NCBI RefSeq assembly: GCF_030167915.1
Contig: NZ_JARGNB010000001.1
Span: 558,001-622,000 of the forward strand
Direction: 5' to 3'
DNA from: Aquabacterium humicola
GTDB lineage: Bacteria; Pseudomonadota; Gammaproteobacteria; Burkholderiales; Burkholderiaceae_C
DNA: 64,000 nt
In this document: in pieces, positions 22,989 to 55,980 of the stretch
How the letters are laid out: each line of letters starts with the position of its first letter
How positions within the stretch are numbered: position 1 is the first letter of the stretch
The notes under the pieces: model-generated
The model's database searches: none
Told to the model about the DNA's origin: nothing
Seen by the model: only the letters and a program-made list of their open reading frames with translations
Translations under genes and position numbers: made by a program

Positions 22989-23870
22989 TCAGCGCCGGTT
23001 GGCCGCGATCTCGGCCAGCCGGGCCTCGAGCCAGCGCGCGTCGTCGGAGTCCGGCGGCACCAGCGTCAGCAGGCGCTTCCAGTGCACGGTGGCCACCGCG
23101 AAGTCGCGGCGCTTGTACGCCGCCGTCGCGGCGAGCGACAGTGCCATGGGGTGATCGGGATCGAGCTTCAACGCGGCTTCCACGCGCTTGAGCGGCTCGC
23201 CCTCGATGCTGCCGTTGGCCAGCGTGGCCAGCGCGTCGGCCGACTGGGCCAGCAGCGAAGGGTCGCGCTGCAGCGCGTCGCCGGTGCGCTCGTAGGCCGC
23301 GGCGGCCTCGGCCATGCGCCCCAGCGCGTGGTACGAGCGCGCCAGCATCGCCCAGCCGGCGGCATCGCCGGGGTTCTTCTCGAGCTTGGCCGCCAGGCTG
23401 GCGACCATGCGCTCGACGTCCGGGGGCATGCCGGACGGCGCCGCGCCGTCGCCATGCGGGGAGGGCGCGCCGGCGGTTGCCGCCGACGGGTGCAGCAGCG
23501 CGATCGGCGCGCCCAGCTGCGCATAGAGGCCAGTCGCGACCAGCGGCAGCATCAGCGCGACGACCAGCGCGCTGCGCGGCAGTGGCGCGGCCGGCGCGGG
23601 CGCGCCAGGCGCAGGCGATGCGGACTCGGCCGCCGCGGTGTCGTCGAGCAGCCGGCGCTGCAGCTCCTCGCGCGCTTCCCGGCCGTCCTGCTCGGACAAG
23701 GTGCCGGCCGCGAGGTCGCGTTCGAGCTCGGCCAGCTGGTGGCGGTAGACCGCCGCATTGAGCGCGCCGGCGGACGTGGCGTTGCGGGCCGTGCTGCGAC
23801 GCCATGGTCGCAGCAGCAGCAGCAGCGTCACGGTGATCAGCGCCACGGCGGCGAACAGGAACGCGCCCAT
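22989..23870 (-). CDS. ccmI: cytochrome c maturation protein CcmI
   Basis: A 293-residue protein that holds apocytochromes for heme ligation. Two N-terminal membrane segments (MGAFLFAAVALITVTLLLLL and, after a cytoplasmic stretch with QLAELERDLAAGTLSEQDGR, RSALVVALMLPLVATGLYAQ) are followed by a periplasmic TPR region (MLARSYHALGRMAEAAAAYE, ALKLDPDHPMALSLAATAAY). The start overlaps the ccmH stop by one base (TGATG). It is the last gene of a complete ccmABCDEFGHI operon. Confidence 0.9.
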   Translation of the reverse strand: MGAFLFAAVALITVTLLLLLRPWRRSTARNATSAGALNAAVYRHQLAELERDLAAGTLSEQDGREAREELQRRLLDDTAAAESASPAPGAPAPAAPLPRSALVVALMLPLVATGLYAQLGAPIALLHPSAATAGAPSPHGDGAAPSGMPPDVERMVASLAAKLEKNPGDAAGWAMLARSYHALGRMAEAAAAYERTGDALQRDPSLLAQSADALATLANGSIEGEPLKRVEAALKLDPDHPMALSLAATAAYKRRDFAVATVHWKRLLTLVPPDSDDARWLEARLAEIAANRR

Positions 23871-24394
23871 CACGGCTCTCCTTGCAGAAGCTGGGCGGCA
23901 CGCGCCCGCTCGTCGTCGGTCAGCGGCCGGGCGGCGCCGTCGCCGCCCGCGGGTGCGCGTCGTGCGCGCAGGTGCAGCGCCAGTGCGCCGGCGCCGATCG
24001 CCAGCAGCAGCGCCGGTCCGCCCCACAGCAGCCAGGTGCTCGGCCGCAACGGCGGCCGATAACGCACGAAGTCCCCGTAGCGGGTGACCAGAAAGTCCAG
24101 CACCTCGCGATCGCTCTTGCCGGCCTTGATCAGCGTGCGGATCTCGCGGCGCAGGTCCTGGGCCAGCTCGGCCCGCGAACCGGCGAGCGACTCGTTCTGG
24201 CAGACCAGGCAGCGCAGCTCGTCGGCGATGCCGATCAGGCGCTGCTCGACCGCTTCGTCGTCGGCCAGCGGCTGCGCGTCGCGGGCGTGGGCCGGCGCCA
24301 GGCCGGCCAGCGCGAATACCAGCGCCAGCACCAGCAGCGGCGGCCAGCGCTTCATCAGCGCGATCGGCGAGGCTTCTTGTCGCTGACGGCTCAT
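23870..24394 (-). CDS. ccmH: cytochrome c maturation protein CcmH
   Basis: A 174-residue membrane-anchored thiol oxidoreductase that reduces apocytochrome cysteines. The N-terminal hydrophobic segment (WPPLLVLALVFALAGLAPAHA) precedes the active-site motif LRCLVCQNESLAGS (LRCxxCQ) and the LVTRYGDFVRYRPPL segment; a second membrane helix (LLWGGPALLLAIGAGALAL) is near the C-terminus. The ATG at 24394 forms an ATGA overlap with the ccmG stop, favouring it over an in-frame ATG at 24355. Confidence 0.92.
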   Translation of the reverse strand: MSRQRQEASPIALMKRWPPLLVLALVFALAGLAPAHARDAQPLADDEAVEQRLIGIADELRCLVCQNESLAGSRAELAQDLRREIRTLIKAGKSDREVLDFLVTRYGDFVRYRPPLRPSTWLLWGGPALLLAIGAGALALHLRARRAPAGGDGAARPLTDDERARAAQLLQGEP

Positions 24395-24957
24395 GGCTTG
24401 GACTCCCGCATGAGCTTGCCCACCATGGGCAGGATCTTCTCCTGCATCACCGCCTCGGTCAGCGGGCCGATGTGCTTGTGGCGGATGGTGCCCTGTGCGT
24501 CGATCAGGTAGGTCTCGGGCACGCCGTAGACGCCGTAGTCCATGCCGACGCGGCCGTCGCGGTCGACGGCGGACAGCCGGTAGGGGTCGCCGTGCTGCGC
24601 CAGCCAGCGCTGCGCGTCGGCCGGCGCGTCCTTGTAGTCCAGGCCGATCAGCGGCACGTCGCCGCGCCGGGCAGCCGCCATCAGCACCGGATGCTCCTCG
24701 CGGCAGGAAGCGCACCACGAGGCCCAGACGTTGAGCAGCCAGACCTGGCCGCGCATCGAAGCCGGGGTGAACACGGCCGGGCCGGCCGGGCCGGCGTTCG
24801 CCTGCAGCGTCTGCAGCTGCGGCAACTCGAACAGCGGCGCCTGGCGGCCGACCAGCGGCGACGGGATCTCGTGCGGATCGCGCGACAACCCGCGCGCGAG
24901 GAACGCGGCCAGCACCAGGAACAGCGCCAGCGGGATCAGCAAGGTCGAGCGCTTCAT
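24391..24957 (-). CDS. ccmG: thiol:disulfide interchange protein CcmG/DsbE
   Basis: A 188-residue thioredoxin-fold protein tethered by one N-terminal helix (TLLIPLALFLVLAAFLARGL). The reducing active site is WASWCASCREEHP, with the cis-proline in GVPETYLID. It keeps apocytochrome heme-binding cysteines reduced in the periplasm. Its ATG overlaps the ccmF stop by four bases (ATGA). Confidence 0.93.
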   Translation of the reverse strand: MKRSTLLIPLALFLVLAAFLARGLSRDPHEIPSPLVGRQAPLFELPQLQTLQANAGPAGPAVFTPASMRGQVWLLNVWASWCASCREEHPVLMAAARRGDVPLIGLDYKDAPADAQRWLAQHGDPYRLSAVDRDGRVGMDYGVYGVPETYLIDAQGTIRHKHIGPLTEAVMQEKILPMVGKLMRESKP

Positions 24958-26933
24958 GCGGCGGCTCCTTGCGCGGGCACGCCGCGGCCGGTGGTCGTGG
25001 CCTCTGTCGTGGACGTGGCCGCTCGTTTCAGGCGGTAGCGGCGGTCCGACGCCGCCAGCGCGCCGCCGAGCGCCATCAGCACGCAGCCACCCCAGATCCA
25101 GCCGACGAAGGGCTTGACGTAGGCGCGCACGCTCCAGGCGCCGTTGTCCAGCGGCTCGCCGAGCGAGACGTAGACGTCGCGCGTCAGACCCGAGTCGATC
25201 GCGCTCTCGGTCATCGGCATCTGCGACGATTGGTAGGCGCGTTTCTCGGGATGCATCGTGCGCAGCAGGCGGCCGTCCTGCAGCAGCCGCAGCTCGCCGC
25301 GCTGTGCGGTGTAGTTCGGTCCGGACACGGGGGACACGCCGACCATCTGCAAGCTGTAGGCGCCGATCGCCAGCGTGTCGCCGGGCGCCATGCGCACGTC
25401 TTTCTCGACCTCGTAGCCCTTGACCAGCGTGATGCCGATGACCACGGCCGCGAGCCCGAGGTGCGCGACGTGCATGCCCCAGAAGGCGGGCGGCGGATTG
25501 CCGGACTTCAGGCGGGCCTTCAACTGCATCGCGGTGGACGCGATGATCCACAGCGCCAGCAGCATGCCTAGCGCAACGATCGGCGAGAAGCGGCCCATCG
25601 CCACCGGAATGCCGGCTGCGCCGGCCAGCGCGAAGAGCGCCGCGCCGCGCAGCGAACGCGCCATCGATCGGGGGTCGAGCTGCTTCCAGCGCGCCAGCGG
25701 GCCCAGCGCGACCAGCGCCAGCAGCGGCACGAAGACCGGCAGCAGCACGGTGTTGAAGTAGGGCGGCCCGACGGAGATCTTGCCCAGATCGAGCGCATCG
25801 AGGACCAGCGGGTACAGCGTGCCCAGCAGCACCGAGCCCGCGGCCACCAGCAGCAGCAGGTTGTTGACCAGCAGCAGCGATTCGCGCGACAGCCAGGCGA
25901 AGCGTCCGCCGCCGCCGACGCGGGGGGCGCGCACCGCGAAGAGTGCCAGCGAGCCGCCGACCACCACCACCAGGAAGCCGAGGATGAAGAGGCCGCGCTT
26001 CGGATCGGTGGCGAAGGCATGCACCGAGCTCAGCACGCCGGAGCGGACCAGGAAGGTGCCCAGCAGCGACAGCGAGAACGCCGCGATCGCCAGCAGCACG
26101 GTCCAGTGGCGGAAGGCGCCGCGCTTCTCGGTCACCGCCAGCGAGTGGATCAGCGCGGTGCCGACCAGCCACGGCATCAGCGAGGCGTTCTCCACCGGGT
26201 CCCAGAACCACCAGCCGCCCCAGCCGAGCTCGTAGTAGGCCCACCACGAGCCGAGCGCGATGCCCAGCGTCAGGTTCAGCCACGCCACCGTCGTCCACGG
26301 TCGCGACCAGCGCGCCCACGCGGCATCGAGCCGGCCCGCCAGCAGCGCGGCCACCGCGAAGCCGAAGGCCACCGAGAAGCCGACGTAGCCCATGTAGAGC
26401 ATCGGCGGGTGGAAGACGAGGCCGGGGTCCTGCAGCAGCGGATTGAGGTCGCGGCCGTCGGCCGGCGCCGGCAGCAGGCGCGCGAACGGGTTCGAGGTCA
26501 GCAGCAGGAAGGCGCCGAAGCCCGCGGCCACCAGCCCCAGCACGCCGATCACACGCGCGACCATCGCATCGGGCAGTTGGCGCGACAGCAGGCTCAGCGC
26601 CAGCGTCCAGCCGTTGAGCATCAGCAGCCACAGCAGCAGCGACCCTTCATGGCCGCCCCAGACGGCGGCGGCGCGGTACGGGGTCGGCAGCTGGGAATTG
26701 GAGTGCTGCGCGACGTAGGCCACCGAGAAGTCGTTGGCGATGAACGCGTGCATCAGGCAGCCGAAGGCGAACACCACCAGCGCGGCCTGCGTCTGTGCCG
26801 CCGGCCTGGCCAGCGCGATCCAGCCGCCCCCGCGGTGGTCGCCGCGCTGCGCGCCGATCAGCGGCAAGGTGCCCTGCACCAGCGCGACGCAGAACGCCAG
26901 GATCAGTGCGAGGTGGCCCAGCTCGGCGATCAC
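24954..26933 (-). CDS. ccmF: heme lyase subunit CcmF
   Basis: A 659-residue polytopic inner-membrane protein of the cytochrome c heme lyase. The WWD domain ([20 protein letters not shown]) that receives heme from CcmE, the [15 protein letters not shown] segment and several conserved histidines in periplasmic loops ([15 protein letters not shown]) are seen. Size and topology (about 15 helices) match the family. ATGA overlap joins it to ccmE. Confidence 0.95.
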
Positions 26934-27382
26934 TTCGTCGTCTCCGTCATGGCTTTCCCCTTGTGCGCCTGGTCGAGCGCATGCTGCGCTTCGGGCGGCA
27001 TGTAGTTCTCGTCGTGTTTGGCCAGCACCTCGGTGGCGGCGAAGTGGCCAGTCGGCCCGTTCACGAGGCGGCCCTGCACGACGGCCCCTTTGCCCTCGCG
27101 GAACAGGTCCGGCAGGATGCCGGTGTAGTGCACCGGGATGTCGTGCGCGGTGTCGGTGACGACGAAGCGCACCGTCATCTGCTCGCGCACGATGCTGCCG
27201 GACTTGACGAGGCCCCCGATGCGGAACACGCGGTTGCGCGGCGCTTCGCCGGCGCCGACCTGCGTGGGCGTGTAGAAGAACGCGACGTTGCTGTTCAGCG
27301 CGTTCAGCACCAGGGCCGATGCGCCGCTCACCGCGACGAGGCCGCCGGTGATCAGCAGGATGCGCAGGGTCCGCGGTTTCAT
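26930..27382 (-). CDS. ccmE: heme chaperone CcmE
   Basis: A 150-residue periplasmic heme carrier with a single N-terminal anchor ([19 protein letters not shown]). The OB-fold core is followed by [12 protein letters not shown], where the histidine binds heme covalently and the tyrosine is an axial ligand. It carries heme from CcmC to CcmF. It overlaps both neighbours by four bases. Confidence 0.95.
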
Positions 27383-27582
27383 CGAGGGTTCTCCTGTCCG
27401 CGCGACGCGCGGCGTGCCGACAGCCGGCGCTGCATGCGCACGTCGTTCAGCGCGGCGCGATGCCGCCGAGCGACCAGCCAGGGCTCGAGGGCCATCGCCG
27501 CGGCGCAGGCGCCCACGCTGCCCCAGACGTAGAGGGCGTAACCGCCCATCGCGAAGAACTCGCCGACGCTAGTCCACTGCAT
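27379..27582 (-). CDS. ccmD: heme exporter subunit CcmD
   Basis: A 67-residue single-helix protein ([20 protein letters not shown]) with a basic cytoplasmic tail ([14 protein letters not shown]). CcmD releases holo-CcmE from CcmC. It overlaps ccmC by 14 bases and ccmE by four. Confidence 0.9.
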
Positions 27583-28351
27583 GCTTCACCCAGTCGGTAT
27601 GCCGTTCGCGCTCGAGGATGATGGCGCGCACCCGGGCCAGCGCGACGGCCACCGAGTACATCCAGAAGGCCAGCGCCACCAGCAGCATCGCCAGCAGCAT
27701 GGTCTGCGCCATCGACGGCGACTTCGTCAGCGACACCGACGCCCCCTGGTGCAGCGTGCTCCACCACTTCACCGAGAAGTAGATGATCGGGATGTTGACG
27801 ACGCCGACGATCGCGAGGATGGCGCCGGCCTTGTCGGCACGCCGCGGCTCGTCGATCGCCGCCTGCAGCGCGAGGAAGCCGAGGTACAGGAACAGCAGCA
27901 GCAGCTCCGAGGTCAGCCGCGCGTCCCACACCCACCAGGTGCCCCACATCGGCTTGCCCCACAGGCTGCCGGTGATCAGCGACAGCGCGGCGAAGAGCGC
28001 GCCGGTGGGCGCCAGCGCCGAGGCCATCATCGACGCCAGCCGGATGTTGAAGGCCAGCCCCACCGCGGCCCAGAACGCCATCACCAGGTAGACGAACATC
28101 GACAGCCAGCTCGCCGGCACGTGCACGAAGATGATGCGGTAGCCCTCGCCCTGCTGCGCATCGGTGGGGGCGACGAAGAAGCCGATCCACAGCCCCGCGA
28201 TGGCCAGCAGCGCGGCGGCGGCGGCGAACCATGGCGCCAGGCGGCCGGCCAGCGGGTAGAAGCTCGCCGGCGACGAGAAGTGGTTCAGGCGCCAGCGCCG
28301 CGGCCGCGGCGCGGCATCGGCGCGGGGGGCAGGGTACGTCGTATCGGCCAT
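27569..28351 (-). CDS. ccmC: heme exporter/handling protein CcmC
   Basis: A 260-residue protein with six hydrophobic segments and the tryptophan-rich domain GTWWVWDARLTSELLLLFLY, which presents heme to CcmE. Flanking periplasmic histidines (FVHVPASW, WWSTLHQGA) are conserved. It lies six bases after the ccmB stop. Confidence 0.95.
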   Translation of the reverse strand: MADTTYPAPRADAAPRPRRWRLNHFSSPASFYPLAGRLAPWFAAAAALLAIAGLWIGFFVAPTDAQQGEGYRIIFVHVPASWLSMFVYLVMAFWAAVGLAFNIRLASMMASALAPTGALFAALSLITGSLWGKPMWGTWWVWDARLTSELLLLFLYLGFLALQAAIDEPRRADKAGAILAIVGVVNIPIIYFSVKWWSTLHQGASVSLTKSPSMAQTMLLAMLLVALAFWMYSVAVALARVRAIILERERHTDWVKHAVD

Positions 28352-28357
28352 CTCCGG

Positions 28358-29095
28358 TCACTCCATCGCAATGCGCAGGGCCGCGGTGATCGCCCACGGC
28401 GCGAAGACCGCTGCCAGCAGCAGCATCGCGGCCAGCACCGACCAGTGGCCCTCGACGCCCAGGCCGCTGATGTACGCGTCCACCGAGCCGGCGCCGAAGA
28501 CCAGCGCCGGGATGAACAGCGGCAGCACCAGCAGCGACAGCACGACCGCTGCGCCGCGGATGCCCAGCGTCAGCGCCGCGCCGATCGCGCCGAGCAGGCT
28601 CAGCAGCGGCGTGCCCAGCAGCAGCGAGCCGGTCAGCACCGCCAGCTCGTCGCCCTGCAGGCCGAACTGCAGCCCCAGCAGCGGCGCCAGCAGCACCAGC
28701 GGCAGGCCGCAGGTCAGCCAGTGCGCGATCACCTTGCCGATGACCTGCAGCGCGAAGGACTGCGATGCCAGCGCCATCTGCTCCAGCGTGCCGTCGGCAT
28801 GGTCGGCGGCGAACAGCCGCGGCAGCCCCAGCAGCGTGGCCAGCATTGCAGCCACCCACAGCACGCCGGGCGCGATGCGGCGCAGCAGCGCCGGCTCGGA
28901 GCCGATGCCCAGCGGGAACAGGCTGACGACCACGACGAAGAAGAACAGCATCGTCAGCAGCTCGCTGCGGCGGCGCGCGGCGAGCAGCAGGTCGCGCTTG
29001 AGCGAAACGGCGATCGCACCGGCCGGCCGCGCGGCGCGCGCGCCCGGCGAGCATGCATCCATCGACGGCAGCACGATGTCGGCGGCCGGCGTCAT
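28358..29095 (-). CDS. ccmB: heme exporter membrane subunit CcmB
   Basis: A 245-residue membrane protein with six predicted helices and the CcmB segments KRDLLLAARRRSELLTMLFF and LFAADHADGTLEQMALASQS. It carries about 25 extra N-terminal residues relative to typical CcmB, so a later start is possible. It works with the ATPase CcmA to release holo-CcmE. ATGA overlap with ccmA. Confidence 0.93.
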   Translation of the reverse strand: MTPAADIVLPSMDACSPGARAARPAGAIAVSLKRDLLLAARRRSELLTMLFFFVVVVSLFPLGIGSEPALLRRIAPGVLWVAAMLATLLGLPRLFAADHADGTLEQMALASQSFALQVIGKVIAHWLTCGLPLVLLAPLLGLQFGLQGDELAVLTGSLLLGTPLLSLLGAIGAALTLGIRGAAVVLSLLVLPLFIPALVFGAGSVDAYISGLGVEGHWSVLAAMLLLAAVFAPWAITAALRIAME

Positions 29096-29763
29096 GTCGC
29101 GGGCTCCAGGCGCGCGGCGTCGGCAGCGGCCGCGCGCGAAGCGCCGGCGTCGGGCCGCTGCAGCGTCAAGGCCAGCCCGTTCGGCAGGTCGACCGGCTGG
29201 TGGCTCGTCAGCACGACGATGCCGCCGCGTGCGAGCTGGCCGGCAACCAGGGCGTTCAGCAGGCCGATGCCTTCGGCATCGAGCGCGGCGAAGGGCTCGT
29301 CGAGCAGCCAGAGCGCTGCCGGCCGCAGCATCAGCTTCGCCAGCAGCACGCGGCGCTTCTGGCCGGCCGACAGCTGGCGCACCGGCAGGTGCTCGCGGCC
29401 GGCCAGGTGCAGGTGCTCGAGTGCGTCGAGCAGCGCGTCTTCCGTCGGGCAGAGGCCGTCGAGCGCCAGCATCAGCGCGAGGTTCTCGAGCGCATCGAGC
29501 TCGTCCTTGAGCGCGGCGGCGTGGCCGATGTAGATCAGCGCGCGGCGGTAGTCGGCGCCGGCACGGGCGATCGGCGTGCCGTGCCAGCGCAGTTCACCGT
29601 GATCGGCGCGGGCCAGGCCGGCGATCGTGCGCAGCAACGTCGTCTTGCCGGCGCCGTTCTCGCCCTGCAGGTGCAGCCAGCAACCGGGGCCGATCGCGAA
29701 CTGCAGCGGCGCGAACAGCGGCCGTTCGCCGCGGCTGCAGACGAGATCGGTGGCGGTCAGCAT
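29092..29763 (-). CDS. ccmA: heme exporter ATPase CcmA
   Basis: A 223-residue ABC ATPase. Walker A (GENGAGKTTLL), signature (QLSAGQKRRVLLAKL) and Walker B (ALWLLDEPFAALD) with the H-loop (VVLTSHQP) are all present. ATG at 29763 fits the family start (MLTATDLVCSRGERPLF); in-frame ATGs at 29796 and 29817 are less likely. It is the first gene of the ccm operon, which supplies the many c-type cytochromes encoded upstream on the same strand. An FNR-like box lies 57 bases before it. Confidence 0.93.
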   Translation of the reverse strand: MLTATDLVCSRGERPLFAPLQFAIGPGCWLHLQGENGAGKTTLLRTIAGLARADHGELRWHGTPIARAGADYRRALIYIGHAAALKDELDALENLALMLALDGLCPTEDALLDALEHLHLAGREHLPVRQLSAGQKRRVLLAKLMLRPAALWLLDEPFAALDAEGIGLLNALVAGQLARGGIVVLTSHQPVDLPNGLALTLQRPDAGASRAAAADAARLEPAT

Positions 29764-29819: not shown

Positions 29820-29833
29820 TTGATCCCCGTCAA
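29820..29833 (-). promoter_or_regulatory. FNR/Anr-type box upstream of ccmA
   Basis: TTGATCCCCGTCAA matches the FNR consensus TTGAT-N4-ATCAA in nine of ten positions. It lies between frdD and ccmA, 57 bases before ccmA, a usual place for an activator site. Confidence 0.55.
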
Positions 29834-29892: not shown

Positions 29893-30264
29893 TCAGCCGA
29901 TCGCCAGCAGGCAGGCCGCAGCCGCCAGCGTGATCAACAGCGCGCTGCCGTAGCAGGCCAGCCGGGCGAGGGCGCCGGTGTGCAGGCCGAGATCGTGCAG
30001 GCTGTGGAACAGCCGATGCGCCGCGTGCCAGGCGAACAGCGCGATCACCGCCAGCAGCGCCAGCTTGCCCAGCGGATGCTGCGCGAAGCGCAGCACGCGG
30101 GCAGGGTCCGCCAGCCCGGGCAGCAGCCCCAGCGGCACCAGCAGCCCGGTGATCAGCACCAGCACTGGCCCGAGCAGCGCCGACAGCATGCCGCCGGCGC
30201 CGAACAGGGCCCAGAAGATCGGCGCGTTCGAGCGACGGGGGGCGGGCGTCGTGGGGCGCTTCAT
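29893..30264 (-). CDS. frdD: fumarate reductase membrane anchor FrdD
   Basis: A 123-residue protein with three transmembrane helices (FWALFGAGGMLSALLGPVLV, then a second near residue 60-80 and a third at the C-terminus). FrdD together with FrdC anchors the catalytic subunits and provides the quinol site; HAAHRLFHSLHDLGLH carries conserved histidine and leucine positions of the family. ATGA overlap with frdC. No heme-ligand arrangement as in diheme anchors is evident, so this is the E. coli-type heme-free anchor. Confidence 0.88.
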   Translation of the reverse strand: MKRPTTPAPRRSNAPIFWALFGAGGMLSALLGPVLVLITGLLVPLGLLPGLADPARVLRFAQHPLGKLALLAVIALFAWHAAHRLFHSLHDLGLHTGALARLACYGSALLITLAAAACLLAIG

Positions 30265-34091: not shown

Positions 34092-34105
34092 TTGATCGGC
34101 ATCAA
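34092..34105 (-). promoter_or_regulatory. Perfect FNR/Anr box upstream of rquA-frdABCD
   Basis: TTGATCGGCATCAA is an exact match to TTGAT-N4-ATCAA. It lies in the 118-base gap between the heme lipoprotein gene and rquA, and would place rquA-frd under oxygen-limited activation. Confidence 0.8.
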
Positions 34106-44125: not shown

Positions 44126-44139
44126 TTGATGAATATCAG
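44126..44139 (-). promoter_or_regulatory. FNR-like box upstream of monoheme cytochrome and omc-mtr genes
   Basis: TTGATGAATATCAG matches TTGAT-N4-ATCAA in nine of ten positions. It lies 54 bases before the cytochrome start and overlaps the 3' end of the DUF2231 gene. Confidence 0.5.
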
Positions 44140-48553: not shown

Positions 48554-49161
48554 CGAATGCCTCGTTGATTGTTCTGATGCGGCATCGCCACCACGGTGAG
48601 CGTGCGAATGCCTTGCGCGCCGCGGACCAGCACGCCCTCGATGTCCGCGGTGGCCGATGGGCCCGTCATCAGCGCCGCGTAGCCCGCGTCGAAGAACGCG
48701 CGCTCGCGGTAGGCGTGGTGCAGGTCGGGCAGGATGCAGGCCGGATCGAGCAGCACCACCAGGTGCTGCGACAGGAAGCCGAGCGCGTTGACGCCGAGCT
48801 CGCGTTCGCTCAGCGCCACCGAGCCCGTCTCGGCGATGCCGAAGGCCGCGCGCACGACGCCGACATCGACGTCGTCCAGCGTCGCCGGTGCCAGCGCCGG
48901 GTCGAGCCGGCGCGTGCCGCCGGCTTCCGGCACGGCCGAGCACATCACGCGGGCACCGGGGAAGGCATCGCGCAGCCAGGCGTCGAGCGACTGGCCCGGC
49001 GCGGGCGTGCCGACCGCGCCGCCCATGCGCGTGAGCGCGGCCGTGAACGCGTCCCACGGCGATGCCGCGGCGCGGTGGAAGTCGGGCAGCGCCGGCAGCG
49101 GCTCGGCCGGCGGCAGGTTCGCGCGGACGCGCGCCAGCACCAGGTCGCGGCTGCCGATCAT
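48550..49161 (-). CDS. lutC: L-lactate utilization protein LutC (LUD domain)
   Basis: A 203-residue LUD-domain protein. The motifs VVRAAFGIAETGSVALSE and LGFLSQHLVVLLDPACILPD are diagnostic. LutC acts with LutA and LutB in oxidising L-lactate to pyruvate. It overlaps lutB by four bases and the nonaheme cytochrome gene by four, so the four genes are translationally coupled. Confidence 0.9.
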   Translation of the reverse strand: MIGSRDLVLARVRANLPPAEPLPALPDFHRAAASPWDAFTAALTRMGGAVGTPAPGQSLDAWLRDAFPGARVMCSAVPEAGGTRRLDPALAPATLDDVDVGVVRAAFGIAETGSVALSERELGVNALGFLSQHLVVLLDPACILPDLHHAYRERAFFDAGYAALMTGPSATADIEGVLVRGAQGIRTLTVVAMPHQNNQRGIR

Positions 49162-50549
49162 GTCGGGCCTCCACGTGCCTTCAGGTACCACTGGCGGAAG
49201 GTCTGCGGCGGTGCGGCCGGCACTTCGCGCTGGCGCCCCCATGCGTTGAAGGGGTTGTAGACCAGCGATCGCGGCAGGTGGTCGATGCCGGCGGCCGCCG
49301 CTTCGACCGCGGCGCGGTACAGGCGCGGCCGCGCCAGGATCTTGCCGGCCACGCGCATCGCCTCGCGCTTGACCAGCGGCAGCTGGCGCCGCTCGGCGAT
49401 GACCTGGCGCCACTTGTAGATCTGCTCGTGGATGTTGATCTTCACCGGGCAGACGCTGGTGCAGCTGCCGTTGAGCGTGCTGGCGAACGGCAGCGCGCTG
49501 TACTTGCGCAGGTCGAAGGTCGGATCGATGATCACGCCGATCGGGCCCGAGTACGTTGCGCCATAGCTCAGGCCGCCGGAGCGCCGGTAGACCGGACAGG
49601 TGTTCATGCATGCGCCGCAGCGGATGCACTTCAGCGAGTACCAGAAGTCGGCCATGCCCAGCCGCTCCGACCGGCCGTTGTCGACGAGCACCACGTGCAG
49701 CTCGGTGCCCGGCCGCGGCGCGCGGAAGTGCGAGGTGATCTGTGTGATCGGCGACCCCAGCGCACTGCGCGACAGCATGCGCACGAAGACGCCCAGGTGC
49801 TCCAGCGTCGGGATCAGCTTTTCGATGCCGATCGAGGCGATGTGCAGCGGCGGCAGGTTGGCGCTCAGGTCGGCATTGCCCTCGTTGGTGCAGACCACGA
49901 AGCTGCCGGTCTCGGCGATCGCGAAGTTCGCGCCCGTCAGGCCGGCGCCGGCGGCCAGGTACGCGGGCCGCGTATGGCGGCGCTGGCTCTCGGCCAGGTA
50001 GGGCACGTCGTCGTTCTCCGGATCGGTGCCCAGCGCGGGGCCGATCGTGCGGCCGAAGACCGCGGCGACGTCGCCGCGCAGCTTGTGCACCGCCGGCACG
50101 ACGATGTGGCTGGGCGGTTCGTCGTCGAGCTGCTGGATGCGCTCGCCGAGGTCGGTCTCCATCACGGTGATGCCGCGCTGCTCGAGATACGGCCGCATCT
50201 CGCATTCGTCGGTCAGCATCGACTTGCTCTTGACCAGCAGCGTGACGCCGCGCTCGTCGAGCAGGCGGTGCACGATCTCGTTGTGCTCGGCCGCGTCGCG
50301 CGCCCAGTGCACGACGATGCCGTTGGCCTGCGCGTTGCGCTCGAACTGCTCCAGGTAGTCGGCCAGGTGCGTCAGCGTGTGCGCCTTGATCGCCGAGGCC
50401 AGCTCGCGCAGCGTCTCCCACTCCGGCAGGCCGTGCGCCTCGCGGTCGCGCTTGCCGCGCAGGTCCCACAGGCGCCGGTCGTGGAACGCGGCATGGCTGC
50501 TGGCCGCGATGAACGTCGACGACGCCTCGGCGTGGTCGACCCGCTTCAT
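49158..50549 (-). CDS. lutB: L-lactate utilization iron-sulfur protein LutB
   Basis: A 463-residue protein with a LUD domain (KSKSMLTDECEMRPYLEQRG, GANFAIAETGSFVVCTNEGN) followed by a ferredoxin-like region with KCIRCGACMNTCPVYRR and SCTSVCPVKINIHEQI, each binding a [4Fe-4S] cluster. The order LutA-LutB-LutC is standard. ATGA overlap with lutC and with lutA. Confidence 0.93.
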   Translation of the reverse strand: MKRVDHAEASSTFIAASSHAAFHDRRLWDLRGKRDREAHGLPEWETLRELASAIKAHTLTHLADYLEQFERNAQANGIVVHWARDAAEHNEIVHRLLDERGVTLLVKSKSMLTDECEMRPYLEQRGITVMETDLGERIQQLDDEPPSHIVVPAVHKLRGDVAAVFGRTIGPALGTDPENDDVPYLAESQRRHTRPAYLAAGAGLTGANFAIAETGSFVVCTNEGNADLSANLPPLHIASIGIEKLIPTLEHLGVFVRMLSRSALGSPITQITSHFRAPRPGTELHVVLVDNGRSERLGMADFWYSLKCIRCGACMNTCPVYRRSGGLSYGATYSGPIGVIIDPTFDLRKYSALPFASTLNGSCTSVCPVKINIHEQIYKWRQVIAERRQLPLVKREAMRVAGKILARPRLYRAAVEAAAAGIDHLPRSLVYNPFNAWGRQREVPAAPPQTFRQWYLKARGGPT

Positions 50550-51289
50550 GCCGGGTCCCCGTTCAGGACCTGCGCGATGTGCCGGAACTTCAGCGGCAGC
50601 CCGGCCCGCTCGGCGCAGCCCTTCTGGTGCATCAGGCAGGACATGTCCGGCGAGACGACGTAGTCGGCGCCGGCGTCGCGGTGGTCGGCCACCTTGTCAT
50701 GCCCCATGCGGCCGGACACGGGTTCCTCGAACACCGAGAACGTGCCGCCGAAGCCGCAGCATTCGTCGGGTCGCCGCGGTTCGACGAACTGGATGCCGCG
50801 CACCGACTCGAGCAAGGCGCGCGGCTTGTTCCAGCGCGGCTCGCCGATCTCCGAGCACTGCGCCTCGTTCAGCCCGCGCAGCGTGGCGCAACCGATGTGC
50901 AGGCCCACCTTGTGCGGGAATCGGGCCCAGGGGAACTCGCGCACCTCCAGCACGTCGTGCAGGAACTCCACCAACTCCCAGGTCCGTGCGCGCACCTGCG
51001 ACACCACCGGCGTCTGCTCGATCGCCGTCAGGTGCCTGCGCACGTGGTGCGCACAGCTGCCCGAAGGCGTGACGATGAAGTCGTGCGCCGCGAAGTTGCG
51101 CACGAAGAGCGCCTCGGCCCCGCGGGCATCCTCTTCGCAGCCGCTGTTGGCCATCGGCTGGCCGCAGCAGGTCTGGTCCAGCGGGTAGTCCACCTCGCAG
51201 CCAACGCGCTCGAGCAATTCGAGCGTGGCGATGCCGACCTCGGGGAAGAAGGCATCCACGTAGCAGGGGATGAACAGACCGACCTTCAT
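50546..51289 (-). CDS. lutA: L-lactate utilization protein LutA (CCG-domain Fe-S protein)
   Basis: A 247-residue protein with two CCG domains: DQTCCGQPMANSGCEEDA and PDECCGFGGTFSVFEEPVSG, with histidine and cysteine in SGSCAHHVRRH. It is cytoplasmic and works with LutBC in lactate oxidation; GlpC-like proteins share the motif, but the LutBC context settles the call. It lies 119 bases after the flavoprotein gene; the gap holds an inverted repeat (51385-51399). Confidence 0.93.
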   Translation of the reverse strand: MKVGLFIPCYVDAFFPEVGIATLELLERVGCEVDYPLDQTCCGQPMANSGCEEDARGAEALFVRNFAAHDFIVTPSGSCAHHVRRHLTAIEQTPVVSQVRARTWELVEFLHDVLEVREFPWARFPHKVGLHIGCATLRGLNEAQCSEIGEPRWNKPRALLESVRGIQFVEPRRPDECCGFGGTFSVFEEPVSGRMGHDKVADHRDAGADYVVSPDMSCLMHQKGCAERAGLPLKFRHIAQVLNGDPA

Positions 51290-51408: not shown

Positions 51409-53040
51409 TCAGCGCAACTCGGGCACCATCTCGATCGCCCCGCACGGACACTCGGCAACGCACAGCCCGCAGCCCTTGCAGTAGTCGAGCTTGAACTCGA
51501 AGCCCTTGCCCGGGCCGAGCTTGGTCACCGCGTTGTCGGGGCAGACGCCATAGCAGTTGTCGCACTCGAAGCAGTTGCCGCACGACAGGCAGCGGCGCGC
51601 CTCGAACAGCGCATTGCCCTCGTCGAGCCCGCCCTGCACCTCGTCGAAGCTGGACTGGCGCCGGATCAGGTCGAGCTGCGGGCGCACGGTCTGCGGGGCG
51701 TCGGCGTAGTACCAGGTGTTCAGCAGCTCGAAGCGGGCCAGCGCGGGCTTGGGTGCCGGTTCCAGCTCGGCGCCGCGCAGCCACGCATCGATGTGGCGCG
51801 CGGCCTTCTTGCCGTGGCCGATGGCCACGGTGACGTTGCGCTCGGCCGGCACCATGTCGCCGCCGGCGAAGATGCCGGGGTGGCCGGTCATCATGCGCTG
51901 GTCGACCTGCACCACGCCGTCGTCGATGGCGAGACCGGGCACGCCGTGCAGCAGCGACAGGTCGACGTCCTGGCCCAGCGCCAGCACCAGCGCATCGGCT
52001 TCGAGCGTCTCGAGCTCGCCGGTCGGCTGCGGGAAGCCGCTGGCGTCGAGCACCATGCGCTCGACGGTGATGCTGTGGTCGCCGGCCTCGCGGATCGTCG
52101 ACAGCCACTTGACCGTCACGCCTTCCTCGAGTGCCTCCTCGAGCTCGAAGTCGTGCGCGGGCATCTTCTCGCGCGTGCGGCGGTAGACGATGAGCGCCTC
52201 GGTGGCGCCGAGCCGGCGCGCGGTGCGCGCGACGTCGATCGCGGTATTGCCGCCGCCGTAGACGACGACGCGCCGGCCGAGCAGTGGCGGAGCCTCGCCT
52301 TCCATCGAGCGCAGCACCGACAGCGCATCCATCACCCGGGCCGAATCGCCGGCCGGGATGAAGGCGCGCCGGGCGATGTGCGCGCCGACGGCGAGGAAGG
52401 CGGCGTCGAAGCCGCCCTCTTGCATCGTGTCGAGGATGCGCTCGACCTTGCGGCCGAGCTCGATGCGCACGCCCAGCGCGGCGATGCGCTGCACCTCGGC
52501 ATCGAGCACGTCGCGCGGCAGGCGGTACTTCGGAATGCCGAAGCGCATCATGCCGCCGGGGCGCGGGCCCGCCTCGTGGATCGTCACCGCATGGCCGAGC
52601 CGCGCCAGGTGGTAGGCCGCGGACAGCCCCGACGGCCCGGCGCCGACGATCAGCACGCGCCGACCGCTGGGCGGCGGCGGGGCATCGAAGGCCCAGCCGC
52701 GGCGAATCGCCTCATCGCCGAGGAAACGCTCGACGGCGTTGATGCCCACCGGTGCGTCGAGCCGGCCGCGGTTGCACTGGCTTTCGCAGGTGTGATAACA
52801 AACGCGGCCCATGATCGCCGGGAACGGGTTGTCCCGTACCAGCCGGCGCCAGGCGGCTTCGTAGCGGCCGGCCTCGGCTTCGTAGAGCCAGCCCTGGATG
52901 TCCTCGCCGGCGGGGCATTCCTGGTTGCATGGCGGCATGCGGTGCACATAGACCGGCCGCTCGGTGCGCCACGAGCCGGTGTGATTGGCCAGCGACGAGC
53001 CGACATCCAGCGTGATCGCGAACGGCTTGGGTGCGCTCAT
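51409..53040 (-). CDS. NAD(P)-binding Fe-S flavoprotein, GltD-like, subunit of 2-oxoacid oxidoreductase
   Basis: A 543-residue protein. An N-terminal Fe-S domain (MPPCNQECPAGEDIQGWL, VCYHTCESQCNRG) precedes a FAD domain (VLIVGAGPSGLSAAYHLARL) and an NAD(P) domain (VVVYGGGNTAIDVARTARRL), all as in the glutamate synthase small subunit. Two further [4Fe-4S] motifs are at the C-terminus (CDNCYGVCPDNA, CKGCGLCVAECPCGAIEM). It resembles PadH, the NADH-linked subunit of phenylglyoxylate oxidoreductase, and here overlaps the beta subunit by four bases. It likely passes electrons from the oxidoreductase to NAD(P) or another carrier. Confidence 0.87.
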   Translation of the reverse strand: MSAPKPFAITLDVGSSLANHTGSWRTERPVYVHRMPPCNQECPAGEDIQGWLYEAEAGRYEAAWRRLVRDNPFPAIMGRVCYHTCESQCNRGRLDAPVGINAVERFLGDEAIRRGWAFDAPPPPSGRRVLIVGAGPSGLSAAYHLARLGHAVTIHEAGPRPGGMMRFGIPKYRLPRDVLDAEVQRIAALGVRIELGRKVERILDTMQEGGFDAAFLAVGAHIARRAFIPAGDSARVMDALSVLRSMEGEAPPLLGRRVVVYGGGNTAIDVARTARRLGATEALIVYRRTREKMPAHDFELEEALEEGVTVKWLSTIREAGDHSITVERMVLDASGFPQPTGELETLEADALVLALGQDVDLSLLHGVPGLAIDDGVVQVDQRMMTGHPGIFAGGDMVPAERNVTVAIGHGKKAARHIDAWLRGAELEPAPKPALARFELLNTWYYADAPQTVRPQLDLIRRQSSFDEVQGGLDEGNALFEARRCLSCGNCFECDNCYGVCPDNAVTKLGPGKGFEFKLDYCKGCGLCVAECPCGAIEMVPELR

Positions 53041-54038
53041 GCCACTGCTCCTGCCGCGTCCATCTGGTGATAGCGGCGGATGTTGCGATCGGCCAGCGCC
53101 TGCAGCCGTTCCAGCGTCTGGACATCGGGCTGCGCGCCGAACAGGTGGGCGAAGCGCTTCTGCGGCTTCAGGTAGGCCTCGACCGGCACCTGGCGCCGGA
53201 TCTTCGAGCTGCCGGTCAGCTCGCCGTTCATCGCCTCGAACACCGGGAACAACCCGCTCTCGTGCGCCAGGCGCGCCAGCCGGATCGTTTCCTGCGAAGG
53301 CGCGCCCCAGCCGAGCGGGCAGGGCACGAGGATGTGGATGTAGCGCGCGCCGCGCAGGGCCATCGCGCTGCGCACCTTGCGTTCGAGGTCGTGCAGCTCG
53401 GCCACCGTGGCGGTGGCGACGTACGGTATCTCGTGCGCCATGGCGATGCGAGGCAGGAACTTGCCCTGGCCGAAGTTGTTGCCGGGCCGCTCTCCGACGG
53501 CCGGGGTCGTCGCGGTGCGCGCAGCCATCGGCGTGGCCGACGAGCGCTGCACGCCGGTGTTCATGTAGGCCTCGTTGTCGTAGCAGATGTAGAGCACGTC
53601 GTCGTTGCGCTCGAACATGCCGGACAGGCAGCCGAGGCCGATGTCGGTGGTGCCGCCGTCGCCGCCCTGGGCCACCACGCGCACGTCGTCGCGCCCCTGC
53701 ACCCGCAGCGCCGCCGCGATGCCGGTGGCCACCGCCGCGACGTTGCCGAACAGCGAATGGATCCACGGGATCTGCCAGGAGGTCTCGGGGTAGGGCGTCG
53801 AGAACACTTCGAGGCAGCCGGTGGCATTGGCGGCGATCAGCCGGCCCCCGGCGGCGCGCATCGCCGCATCGATGGCGTAGCGCGCGCCCAGCGCTTCGCC
53901 GCAGCCCTGGCAGGCGCGGTGGCCGGAGTTCAGCGCGTTGCTGCGCTCGGGCGAGGCCTGCTCGCTGCGCTGCTGCGGCGACAGCAGCCGATTGCCGACC
54001 GTGAACGTGCCGGTCTGGTAGAACTTGATCGCTTCCAT
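53037..54038 (-). CDS. 2-oxoacid:acceptor oxidoreductase, TPP-binding beta subunit
   Basis: A 333-residue subunit. The cluster-linked opening RACQGCGEALGARYAID, the thiamine diphosphate motif GDGGTTDIGLG and YDNEAYMNTGVQRSSATP are characteristic of pyruvate and 2-oxoacid oxidoreductases (PorB, PadI). It decarboxylates the oxoacid and forms the CoA thioester with the alpha and gamma subunits. It begins four bases after the alpha subunit. Confidence 0.92.
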   Translation of the reverse strand: MEAIKFYQTGTFTVGNRLLSPQQRSEQASPERSNALNSGHRACQGCGEALGARYAIDAAMRAAGGRLIAANATGCLEVFSTPYPETSWQIPWIHSLFGNVAAVATGIAAALRVQGRDDVRVVAQGGDGGTTDIGLGCLSGMFERNDDVLYICYDNEAYMNTGVQRSSATPMAARTATTPAVGERPGNNFGQGKFLPRIAMAHEIPYVATATVAELHDLERKVRSAMALRGARYIHILVPCPLGWGAPSQETIRLARLAHESGLFPVFEAMNGELTGSSKIRRQVPVEAYLKPQKRFAHLFGAQPDVQTLERLQALADRNIRRYHQMDAAGAVA

Positions 54039-54042: not shown

Positions 54043-55296
54043 TCATCCGATGCGCGAGGCCACCGTGCCGATGTCGCGCAGCACGCCCTCGGCGATGGGG
54101 CCGGAACGACGGGTGGCGCGCTCGCGCGCCAGCACGCGCTCGACGAGCTCGTGGTCGAGGTCGAGGAAGGTCAGCGGCTCGAGCCGGTCGGCCATCGCAT
54201 CGAGCAGCAGGCGCTGCAGCGAGGCCTGCGTGATGGCGCGGCCGCCCAGGCCCGCCACCACCGCCAGCACCGGCAGCGGGTGCTCGCGCAAGGCCATGCG
54301 CACATCGCGCGAGACGATGCCGCCGATGCCGACCGCGAAGCACTTCTCGATCACGACGACGCGCCGGGCCTGCGCCAGCGCTGCCTGCAGCGCCGCGATC
54401 GGGAACGGGCGGAACGAGGTGATGCCGACCGCGCCGATGCGGTGGCCCTGTTCGCGCAGCGCATCGACCGTGTCCTTGATCGTGCCGAGCACCGAGCCGA
54501 GCGCGATGACGATGGTCTCGGCATCGTCGTCACGGTAGCGGCTGATCAGGCCGCCGGCGGCGCGGCCGAAGCGGGCGCGGAATTCGGCGGCCACCTGCGG
54601 GATCAGGTCCAGCGCCTGCAGCTGCTTCGCGTGCGCCAGGTAGCGCACCTCGGTGAAGGCCTCGGGCCCGACCATCGCGCCGATGCTCACCGGCTCGGCC
54701 GGGTCCAGCACCTGGCGCGGCTCGTAGCGCGGCAGGAACGCGTCCACCGTCGCCTGGTCGGGCAGGTCGACGCGCTCGACCGCATGGGTCAGGATGAAGC
54801 CGTCCATGCACACCATCACCGGCAGCGACAGCTCCTCGGCGATGCGGAAGGCCTGGATGTGCAGGTCGACCGCATCCTGGTTCGATTCCGCGAACAGCTG
54901 GATCCAGCCGGCGTCGCGCATCGCCATGCTGTCGCTGTGATCGTTCCAGATGTTGATCGGCGCGCCGATCGCGCGGTTGGCGATCGTCATCACGATCGGC
55001 AGGCCGAGCCCGGAGGCGTTGTAGACCGCCTCGGCCATGAACAGCAGCCCCTGGCTGGCGGTGGCGGTGTAGGCGCGCGCGCCGGTGGCCGATGCGCCGA
55101 TGGCGACGCTCATCGCCGCGAACTCGGATTCCACGTTGATGAATTCGCAGGGCTGCAGCGCGCCGGTCTTCACCAGCGCGCCCAGGCCCTCGACGATGTG
55201 CGTCTGCGGCGAGATCGGGTAGGCGCAGATCACCTCGGGGCGGCAGGCGGCCACCGCCCGCGCGACCGCATGCGAGCCTTCGCATTGTTCAAGCAT
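54043..55296 (-). CDS. 2-oxoacid:acceptor oxidoreductase, alpha subunit
   Basis: A 417-residue subunit with ICAYPISPQTHIVEGLG, EFINVESEFAAMSVAIGASA and TATASQGLLFMAEAVYNASG, the pyrimidine-binding pattern of PorA/PadG, and a C-terminal domain (VVVIEKCFAVGIGGIVSRDV). The substrate could be pyruvate, phenylglyoxylate or a related acid; the adjoining lactate-oxidation genes favour pyruvate. It overlaps the gamma gene by eight bases. Confidence 0.91.
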   Translation of the reverse strand: MLEQCEGSHAVARAVAACRPEVICAYPISPQTHIVEGLGALVKTGALQPCEFINVESEFAAMSVAIGASATGARAYTATASQGLLFMAEAVYNASGLGLPIVMTIANRAIGAPINIWNDHSDSMAMRDAGWIQLFAESNQDAVDLHIQAFRIAEELSLPVMVCMDGFILTHAVERVDLPDQATVDAFLPRYEPRQVLDPAEPVSIGAMVGPEAFTEVRYLAHAKQLQALDLIPQVAAEFRARFGRAAGGLISRYRDDDAETIVIALGSVLGTIKDTVDALREQGHRIGAVGITSFRPFPIAALQAALAQARRVVVIEKCFAVGIGGIVSRDVRMALREHPLPVLAVVAGLGGRAITQASLQRLLLDAMADRLEPLTFLDLDHELVERVLARERATRRSGPIAEGVLRDIGTVASRIG

Positions 55297-55879
55297 CGGC
55301 GGCCTCCGCGGGTTGCCGTTGCTGCTGCAGGACGAACCGGTGCGCGGCCGTGGCGGCGTTGATGTTGCCCCGGGCCAGGGCACCGCTGAAGCGCGCCTCG
55401 ATGGCGGCCACCACGTCCGCCAGCAGGATCGGACCGCCCAGCGCCGCGAAGGCGCCCAGCAGCGCGGCATTCGGCAGCGGGCGCCCGACGTGGTCGAGGG
55501 CCAGCTCGGTCGCGGGCACCGTCAGCACCCGCTCGGCCCGGAAGCCGGCCGCGAATTCGCCGATGCCCAGCGCCTCCAGGCTGCGTGCGCTGTTGATCAG
55601 GATCGTGCCGTCGCGCTGCAGGCCGCTGAAGACGTCGACCTGGTGCAGCAGCGTCGGGTCCTGGATGATCAGCGCGTCGGGCGCGACGATCGGCTCGCGC
55701 GTGCGGATCGGCGTGTCGGCTATGCGGCAGAAGGCCACCACCGGCGCGCCCGTTCGTTCGGAGCCGAAGCTGGGAAAGGCCTGTGCATGCCGTCCGCCGA
55801 CGAACGCGGCGACCGACAGCATCTCGGTTGCGCTGACCACGCCCTGGCCGCCACGGCCATGAATGCGCACCTGGTACAT
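55289..55879 (-). CDS. 2-oxoacid:acceptor oxidoreductase, gamma subunit
   Basis: A 196-residue subunit with the family motif IHGRGGQGVVSATEML and FPSFGSERTGAPVVAFCRI. The ATG at 55879 is preferred because GGAGG stands 5 bases upstream; an in-frame ATG at 55909 has none. It opens the gamma-alpha-beta-flavoprotein operon, with a perfect FNR box about 90 bases upstream. Confidence 0.9.
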   Translation of the reverse strand: MYQVRIHGRGGQGVVSATEMLSVAAFVGGRHAQAFPSFGSERTGAPVVAFCRIADTPIRTREPIVAPDALIIQDPTLLHQVDVFSGLQRDGTILINSARSLEALGIGEFAAGFRAERVLTVPATELALDHVGRPLPNAALLGAFAALGGPILLADVVAAIEARFSGALARGNINAATAAHRFVLQQQRQPAEAADA

Positions 55880-55966
55880 GCTGCCTCCGGCTTCCGTGCA
55901 GATGCGCATGCTGGAGCGTTGGCGGCGGCGCCGGCTTGCGAACCCTCAATGTCGGTGCTGCACGGG

Positions 55967-55980
55967 TTGATGGCGATCAA
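55967..55980. promoter_or_regulatory. Perfect FNR/Anr box between oxidoreductase operon and small membrane gene
   Basis: TTGATGGCGATCAA is an exact match to TTGAT-N4-ATCAA. It lies 87 bases before the oxidoreductase gamma start (minus strand) and 63 bases before the small membrane gene at 56044 (plus strand), and could serve either or both. Confidence 0.78.

Follow-up and report, generated by a model that had tools for sequence, protein, structure and literature searches.

Background

Which quinone feeds an electron conduit across the outer membrane in a bacterium whose genome shows no match to MenB or MqnC of menaquinone synthesis? Model metal reducers respire via menaquinone, with which Geobacter also works, and most betaproteobacteria are limited to ubiquinone, which by its potential is ill suited to respiring minerals. 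The question is raised by a stretch of 64,000 nucleotides from Aquabacterium humicola (contig NZ_JARGNB010000001.1, positions 558,001 to 622,000; hereafter the window, from genome G000), which holds an island of 32 called genes at 22989-55879, all of them on the minus strand, between called genes on the plus strand at 22093-22983 and 56044-56205. This single-strand block had been described in a first-pass annotation of the same DNA, and gene calling confirms it; the total of 41 CXXCH heme motifs was likewise reproduced (ten in MtrA, ten in each of two OmcA/MtrC proteins, nine in a nonaheme-cytochrome b protein and one in each of two small cytochromes), and the parts then named, CcmA-I, FrdABCD, RquA, MtrAB, the two OmcA/MtrC proteins, the nonaheme-cytochrome b protein, LutABC-like proteins and an oxidoreductase, are all present. 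What escaped it are two EB_dh-domain proteins, a DUF2231 protein, a helix-hairpin-helix protein, the fusion of an NAD(P) domain to the delta subunit of the oxidoreductase and, above all, that rquA itself is tied to extracellular quinol dehydrogenases.

I read the island as an oxygen-responsive anaerobic module in which rhodoquinone feeds both the fumarate reductase and the extracellular conduit, and I put the probability of this reading at roughly 0.57. It builds on what the sequences themselves hold, namely gene content, FNR-type boxes, conservation of the block, the lack of a MenB or MqnC match and a repeated linkage of rquA; that the quinol dehydrogenase uses rhodoquinol is suggested by gene context, and the electrons presumably flow outward. 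At low oxygen, FNR or Anr would turn on the operons, and RquA would convert ubiquinone to rhodoquinone, a low-potential quinone. Rhodoquinol would have an outlet inside, through FrdABCD, which would reduce fumarate to succinate, and another outward, through a dehydrogenase of the CbcL/MtrH type (CymA in the sister species), small periplasmic cytochromes and MtrA-MtrB to two surface decahemes, with the hemes loaded by the products of the Ccm operon. The LutABC-like proteins and an NAD(P)-linked 2-oxoacid oxidoreductase would be accessory donors, complex I probably passing on the electrons of the NAD(P)H that the oxidoreductase yields.

The wider proposal, that rhodoquinone is the working quinone of Mtr-type respiration in menaquinone-less Burkholderiales, that rquA was recruited repeatedly and that the hub possibly runs in both directions, in which case extracellular electrons could drive fumarate reduction, has in my estimate a little less than an even chance. 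The retention of rquA with the conduit in several relatives suggests how menaquinone-less bacteria could power extracellular respiration. If rhodoquinone does fill this role, it would explain the recurrent frdABCD beside mtrCAB in Burkholderiales, which is left open in the pertinent sections of PMC8805035 (papers are cited here for such sections), extend the role of rquA beyond fumarate respiration, provide a genetic marker by which metal reducers could perhaps be told from metal oxidisers that have the same conduit, and point to a component perhaps required for transplanting the Mtr pathway into other laboratory bacteria.

Conduit, quinol dehydrogenase and fumarate reductase

Gene families were assigned by NCBIfam and Pfam profile scans with curated cut-offs. 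In the direction of transcription the island reads PorC, PorA, PorB, a GltD-PorD fusion, LutA-, LutB- and LutC-like proteins and the nonaheme-cytochrome b protein; then a small cytochrome c, an EB_dh protein, DUF2231, a second small cytochrome c, OmcA/MtrC, the helix-hairpin-helix protein and OmcA/MtrC; and finally MtrA, MtrB, the second EB_dh protein, RquA, FrdA, B, C and D, and CcmA to CcmI. Genes mostly overlap or lie less than 40 bases apart, the larger gaps being 119, 93, 154, 129, 63 and 63 bases. The genes of the proposed electron path and of heme loading are:

46628-48553, minus strand: quinol dehydrogenase of the CbcL/MtrH/MtoC type, nine CXXCH motifs and a cytochrome b domain
46234-46593, minus strand: small monoheme cytochrome c (cytc2; PF00034), a recurrent neighbour of CbcL and CymA
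43734-44072, minus strand: small monoheme cytochrome c (cytc1; PF00034)
40908-43670, minus strand: the larger decaheme OmcA/MtrC lipoprotein (TIGR03507, 466 bits, cut-off 209; start moved to 43670, lipobox-like)
38242-40530, minus strand: decaheme OmcA/MtrC lipoprotein (TIGR03507, 486 bits, cut-off 209; lipobox-like start)
37280-38245, minus strand: MtrA, decaheme, DmsE family (TIGR03508, 280 bits, cut-off 192)
35195-37267, minus strand: MtrB outer-membrane barrel, MtrB/PioB (PF11854, 495 bits; TIGR03509, 433 bits, cut-off 240)
33284-33973, minus strand: RquA, rhodoquinone synthase (NF038261, 293 bits, cut-off 175)
31468-33261, minus strand: FrdA (NF006686, 1035 bits, cut-off 854)
30653-31471, minus strand: FrdB (NF009051, 402 bits, cut-off 333)
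30261-30629, minus strand: FrdC (NF003445, 80.6 bits, below the cut-off of 143)
29893-30264, minus strand: FrdD (NF003977, 135 bits, cut-off 60)
22989-29763, minus strand: ccmABCDEFGHI, cytochrome c maturation system I (profile scans)

The barrel, the decaheme MtrA and the decaheme surface lipoproteins stand in one cluster and all exceed their cut-offs, which makes this an MtrCAB-type conduit, predicted to carry electrons across the outer membrane; the lipobox-like starts of both OmcA/MtrC proteins were judged by eye. FrdA and FrdB score as equivalogs and are accompanied by two membrane subunits, with FrdC below its cut-off. Among the maturation proteins CcmA, B, C, E, F, G (DsbE) and I exceed the curated cut-off, CcmH is recognised by NrfF similarity below it, and CcmD (27379-27582) is named by its position and by a 69% match found only in the sister species, G532.

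The nonaheme protein joins an N-terminal multiheme c domain with nine CXXCH motifs to a C-terminal cytochrome b domain, the Ni_hydr_CYTB-like domain scoring slightly under its cut-off (E 7e-7). Eight or nine CXXCH motifs, and a membrane part with hydrophobic segments and conserved histidines, recur in the 81 aligned sequences of this type, and a single, weak match to a solved structure was found (E 0.004). Proteins of the CbcL/MtrH/MtoC family have been described as enzymes that oxidise quinols or reduce quinones in extracellular electron transfer (PMC6295460, PMC9129911). Of 299 genomes of the family, 12 have a full-length member (51-55% identical to the window protein in the genomes other than that of the window), and all 12 have MtrB, 10 of them also RquA, over the cut-off. 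That the dehydrogenase might be unique to the island was refuted by at least 442 confirmed relatives in genome contigs, the family itself being published (PMC6295460). Among the 80 of their loci that were kept, with stretches of up to 10 kb on each side, many of them short and ended by contig ends, the neighbours include a small cytochrome (48), MtrA (30), MtrB (26), RquA (8) and FrdA (8).

Linkage of rquA to the conduit

The 299 family genomes were also scored for RquA and MtrB against the curated cut-offs. RquA passes in 19, MtrB in 20 and both in 13, so that RquA is found in 13 of the 20 genomes with MtrB and in 6 of the 279 others (odds ratio 84, Fisher p 1e-13). Counted by genus, RquA and MtrB each occur in 15 of 141 genera, 11 of them common to both (p 2e-10). 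The MtrB genomes without RquA over the cut-off number seven, and include G555, with an RquA fragment at a contig end, and G592, which has MenB.

The genes are also neighbours. In 11 of the 19 rquA genomes (G532, G264, G638, G562, G446, G598, G512, G587, G599, G431 and G522, spanning 10 genera) no more than 10 kb separates rquA from a CymA- or CbcL-like gene, where gene numbers and genome sizes lead one to expect 0.13 such genomes; the corresponding P of 3.6e-20 overstates the surprise, because it assumes independent genomes and uniform gene placement. Neither the window, in which CbcL is 12.7 kb from rquA, nor G457, with split contigs, is among the 11. MtrA or MtrB is found within 10 kb of rquA in 8 of 19 (the window, G532, G264, G638, G587, G415, G431 and G522). 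Chance clustering of rquA with the conduit is rejected by these counts of co-occurrence and linkage.

An E. coli-type frd stands beside rquA in 9 of 19 genomes (the window, G532, G264, G457, G638, G562, G405, G599 and G522), and the other FrdA-like neighbours are an frdA fragment in G446 and distant FrdA- and FrdB-like proteins (36-38% and 23-31% identical, respectively) in G542, G423 and G516. There are also rquA genes that adjoin a CymA-like gene in a stretch lacking any E. coli-type frd (G598, G512, G431 and, at two loci, G587), or that directly follow a CbcL gene with no frd in the stretch examined (L044, L053 and L095, the last of which ends soon after). L044 belongs to Rhodoferax lacus IMCC26218, which is in cultivation. 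In G405 a CbcL-Mtr-Ccm cluster lies about 250 kb from rquA.

As a control, none of 20 rquA neighbourhoods from outside the order but inside the phylum matched CymA, CbcL or MtrAB at E 1e-8; they were hand-picked from the 59 genomes beyond the family in which RquA passes its cut-off, and several of the stretches were ended by contig ends. Also outside the family are G329, where Omc-MtrA-MtrB genes stand about 4 to 16 kb away from rquA and are set apart from it by other genes, and G152, G381 and G103, where no Omc-MtrAB-type match was found near rquA.

RquA of the window is 85% identical to that of G532 and carries the motif ACVYGN, with a like motif in 47 of 51 RquA rows, compared among RquA proteins alone; the S-adenosylmethionine-binding motif I is altered in RquA (PMC5953543). 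In a tree of these 51 rows, which omits G103, with its split match, and the fragment of G555, the linked rows do not make one clade: the starred branches call for no fewer than two changes and the best tree for five. Two changes could equal one gain and one loss. Fourteen linked, Rhodoferax-like rows form a supported clade (99/100) amid rows from outside the order, and in them frd, if present, precedes rquA. The remaining linked rows (window, G532, G264, G522, G415, G431, G587, G599 and G329) do not resolve into a clade and stand amid unlinked ones such as G405 and G615, and in the window, G532, G264, G522 and G599 an E. coli-type frd follows rquA. Because gene order differs, separate assembly of the linkages seems favoured. 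The simpler picture of linked rquA genes in two clean clades did not hold. The deep forks of the tree are unsure given the long branches of G381, G688 and G516. Linked rows here include the window at its 12.7 kb, G329 at its 4-16 kb, G415, which has mtrB only, and G457, in which frdA is split between the ends of two unjoined contigs, C45 carrying CymA and C46 carrying rquA.

Two observations on rquA stand apart. In G512 (L138:9989-12503) the gene is transcribed away from those for a small cytochrome, a CymA-like protein and a cytochrome of the family of PccH, a Geobacter cathode protein; ccm genes lie behind rquA, and the divergent gap holds a perfect FNR-type box. A second RquA-like family (L222-L229, e.g. 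L224:9679-10488) scores about 103-119 bits to NF038261 and was excluded from the RquA counts. It occurs in 10 of the 299 genomes, 8 of which have MtrB over the cut-off, has an N-terminal hydrophobic segment and shows CAFGN in place of ACVYGN; no respiratory neighbours were recognised by eye in eight genomes.

Menaquinone genes and quinone potentials

No MenB or MqnC match was found in the genome of the window at E 1e-60. Over their cut-offs, MenB occurs in 7 and MqnC in none of 59 genomes, made up of all 26 genomes of the family in which MtrB or RquA passes and 33 of the 41 genomes of the order with an MtrB match (all except G123, G145, G170, G201, G355, G358, G364 and G396). The potentials given in PMC6529003 are +100 mV for ubiquinone, -63 mV for rhodoquinone and -80 mV for menaquinone, and Rhodoferax ferrireducens is there stated to produce rhodoquinone.

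Candidate control by oxygen

The window was searched with TTGATNNNNATCAA, which I take to be the consensus of FNR/Anr-type boxes. The boxes upstream of operons are given without strand:

55967-55980: perfect box before porC; G532 has a box in the same place (L164:4169)
44126-44139: box with one mismatch before cytc1, sharing four bases with the end of the DUF2231 gene
34092-34105: perfect box before rquA; an identical box in G532 (L130:1091)
29820-29833: box with one mismatch before ccmA; G532 has a box in the same place (L129:16526)

With at most one mismatch, these four and a single other, at 59776, are the only boxes in the window, where about 0.27 per 64 kb are expected from 30 simulated sequences; with at most two mismatches there are 16, against 3.3 expected. 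G532 keeps the boxes before porC, rquA and ccmA, three of the four positions, and a counterpart of the cytc1 box was searched for there and not found. No FNR-type box lies inside the 119-base gap before lutA, and por, lut and cbcL may therefore form one transcript. The position at which the first-pass annotation had ended its block, 55980, is the last base of the perfect box before porC, and its expectation of co-induction at low oxygen fits the boxes directly upstream of four operons, which together make a predicted FNR/Anr regulon.

Conservation and mobility of the block

The sister species G532 carries the same block, its matched genes being 58-94% identical. No match was found there to the EB_dh proteins, the DUF2231 protein, one small cytochrome and the nonaheme-cytochrome b protein; CbcL is missing and the cluster includes a NapC/NirT (CymA-like) tetraheme protein. 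A LctP lactate permease precedes lutCBA in G532, and two histidine-kinase-like genes lie between lutA and the oxidoreductase. The island of G532 is on contig C2 and the homologs of two genes that flank it in the window are on C23, which argues that the island was inherited as a unit and moved, G532 being the one genome that provides this evidence; the earlier notion of a block that holds together thus gains from its being kept at another chromosomal place. In G409, G614 and G683, three other genomes of the genus, neither an MtrB match nor RquA over the cut-off was found. A Burkholderiaceae isolate (BURC, L029) has the oxidoreductase, the EB_dh/DUF2231 pair, CbcL, the conduit and the other EB_dh protein, with no lutABC between oxidoreductase and CbcL; the stretch examined ends after the second EB_dh protein, 4.3 kb short of the contig end.

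Composition gives no sign of a recent import, as the island, with a G+C content of 0.67-0.74 over 2-kb windows, stays inside the range of the remaining window. The only tRNAs of the window are at 12739-12921.

Alternative explanations

Several observations weigh against a quinone shared by fumarate reductase and conduit. Five of the 20 MtrB genomes (G424, G493, G547, G627 and G668) have neither RquA nor MenB nor MqnC over the cut-off, and 5 of the 19 rquA genomes (G405, G542, G423, G516 and G615) lack a match to CymA, CbcL or Mtr in the neighbourhood of rquA. The gene stands at only 8 of the 80 kept CbcL loci, and at 4 of the 12 titled Rhodoferax. Outside the family, RquA is over the cut-off in 4 of 41 genomes with an MtrB match, two of them barely, G329 being the only one in which it is near mtr genes. 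RquA and MenB are never found together over the cut-off, but at p 0.08 this is not significant, and I discarded their exclusivity as a proof; six rquA genomes (G587, G512, G598, G415, G542 and G329) have MenB-family matches of 292-323 bits, the cut-off being 343. Genes of the frd type are about as constant beside rquA (9 of 19, or 12 of 19 with the distant type of G542, G423 and G516) as quinol dehydrogenases are, and the idea that they are less constant did not hold. CbcL and MtoC homologs are present in Fe(II) oxidisers too (PMC6295460). The linkage could, moreover, reflect shared anaerobic control and not a shared quinone. Rhodoquinone would in that case serve the fumarate reductase alone and the conduit would run on ubiquinol, their co-location resulting from FNR control and joint movement. 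The frd neighbours just counted agree with this, as do the tight rquA-frdABCD operon of the window, with its 22-bp gap, the FNR-type boxes, which would account for the co-location, and the reported proximity of rquA to complex II, respiratory and cytochrome genes (PMC5953543). I nevertheless find it unlikely, if worth serious attention, as CymA or CbcL stands by rquA without an E. coli-type frd in G598, G512, G431, G587, L044, L053 and L095, and as ubiquinol at +100 mV would probably leave a small driving force to ferric minerals.

The current might also run inward, the conduit importing electrons from ferrous iron, Mn(II), a cathode or partner cells and CbcL reducing the quinone, with fumarate or oxygen as the sink. 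Fe(II) oxidisers do carry CbcL/MtoC homologs (PMC6295460), Ramlibacter lithotrophicus RBP-2 is implicated in oxidative extracellular electron transfer and frdABCD has been suggested to support such transfer both ways (PMC8805035); the locus of strain RBP-1 (L067) has CbcL, CymA, Omc, MtrA and Ccm, and the PccH-family cytochrome of G512 lies by rquA. On the other hand, the loci titled Gallionella, Gallionellaceae or Sideroxyarcus (L077, L085, L086 and L101) and Ramlibacter lithotrophicus (L067) have CbcL and MtrA and no rquA in the stretches examined, donor-like enzymes share the block of the window, and Fe(II) would reduce rhodoquinone with difficulty, all of which makes uptake decidedly improbable as an account of the island. 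The same five loci, picked after the fact, would fit rquA as a marker of outward flow. The first-pass annotation, for its part, had drawn a dedicated pathway from lactate to the outside, with both donor enzymes integral to it. The lutC and CbcL genes do overlap by 4 bases, G532 retains lutABC and the LctP permease in its cluster, and oxidoreductase genes are near in G532, L029 and G405. A straight path of this kind seems doubtful to me all the same, since the window and G532 are the only loci examined whose cluster includes lutABC, L029 lacking it between oxidoreductase and CbcL and none of the 80 kept CbcL loci, with at most 10 kb on each side, matching the lutABC of the window, and since a subunit of the oxidoreductase points to NAD(P) as its acceptor.

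Relation to known systems

In Shewanella oneidensis, rquA and FrdABCD are not known to be part of the mtr cluster. The CymA-MtrCAB system of that species shares with the island a quinol dehydrogenase, a periplasmic carrier and MtrA-MtrB-MtrC, and differs in being based on menaquinone and in its NapC-family CymA (in part PMC8805035). Geobacter sulfurreducens CbcL, likened here by its make-up, has nine c-type hemes and an inner-membrane cytochrome b domain as well (PMC9129911), whereas the outer-membrane complexes of Geobacter are of the Pcc type (PMC6295460). In Rhodoferax ferrireducens, an Fe(III) reducer, a CbcL-family MtrH, CymA homologs and mtrABC share one cluster; 'rhodoquin' does not occur in the pertinent text on it (PMC6295460).

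The closest description is that of the Group 4 mtrCAB clusters of Burkholderiales (PMC8805035, mBio 2022), in which mtrCAB often stands beside frdABCD, sometimes with ccmA-I, in a pattern of passenger genes and with a CymA or MtoC-type quinone oxidoreductase nearby. The sections concerned name menaquinone genes as needed, leave the role of frd open, with heme synthesis or two-way electron transfer as suggestions, and contain neither 'rhodoquin' nor 'rquA' nor 'lutABC'. The first-pass annotation held that the combination of genes in the island looks uncommon, which calls for a qualification as regards mtrCAB with frdABCD and ccmA-I. The vicinity of rquA to complex II and to other respiratory genes, including cytochrome genes, has in turn been described with no link to extracellular electron transfer in the relevant section (PMC5953543). 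Literature searches, with most subscription journals outside their reach, found no paper that joins rhodoquinone to a multiheme cytochrome, CymA or an outer membrane cytochrome, and none with rquA, cytochrome c and Rhodoferax together; in the parts of PMC12314917, PMC5946492 and PMC10715153 that bear on it, rhodoquinone is mentioned in the titles of cited works or in passing, with regard to phototrophs. The mtr-frd-ccm core is thus of a known kind, and the link to rquA looks new.

Donor enzymes and further genes

The genes of the lactate and 2-oxoacid enzymes, which I regard as accessories of the module, are:

55289-55879, minus strand: PorC, gamma subunit of a 2-oxoacid oxidoreductase (TIGR02175, 176 bits, cut-off 81)
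54043-55296, minus strand: PorA, alpha subunit (NF040682, E 1.2e-133, below cut-off; PF01855 over cut-off)
53037-54038, minus strand: PorB, beta subunit (NF008819, E 1.1e-99, below cut-off)
51409-53040, minus strand: GltD-like NAD(P)/FAD domain fused to a PorD-type ferredoxin, the delta subunit (NF009410, 761 bits, cut-off 516; PorD-like residues 484-541)
50546-51289, minus strand: LutA-like protein (NF045670, C-terminal part, E 4e-38, below cut-off)
49158-50549, minus strand: LutB-like protein (TIGR00273, 375 bits, equivalog cut-off 445)
48550-49161, minus strand: LutC-like protein (PF02589 LUD domain over cut-off)

With LutB short of its equivalog score, the three proteins are called Lut-like; they may deliver electrons at the level of the quinone. 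PorA and PorB likewise stay below the pyruvate-specific cut-offs, PorC passing at the subfamily level, and the NAD(P)-binding subunit suggests that the oxidoreductase probably feeds NAD(P)H.

Four more genes lie between the cytochrome genes or beside rquA:

44731-46140, minus strand: membrane-anchored EB_dh-domain protein (PF09459, 124 bits)
44136-44741, minus strand: DUF2231 membrane protein (PF09990, E 1.2e-4, below cut-off)
40523-40897, minus strand: helix-hairpin-helix protein (PF12836), recurrent in related clusters
34128-35174, minus strand: EB_dh-domain lipoprotein with one CX3CH motif (PF09459, 132 bits)

The CX3CH motif of the lipoprotein is additional to the 41 CXXCH motifs; its gene sits between mtrB and rquA, and a 73% identical match is found near the oxidoreductase genes of G405 (L163). 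The membrane-anchored EB_dh protein and DUF2231 may be a rhodoquinone-linked heme module. In G1023, which belongs to another class, an EB_dh protein that shares 47% identity with the one at 44731-46140, a DUF2231 protein and RquA are encoded co-directionally (L213:9577-12423). The helix-hairpin-helix protein recurs beside OmcA/MtrC genes in related loci, an odd place for a fold usually associated with DNA binding. Outside the island, positions 535-2973 hold a rubrerythrin-like gene, recognised by eye, and genes for a CCG-domain protein and a DUF3501 protein; the same trio (70-89% identical) adjoins a CbcL gene in L136 and in L073/L166, the latter two probably being one contig.

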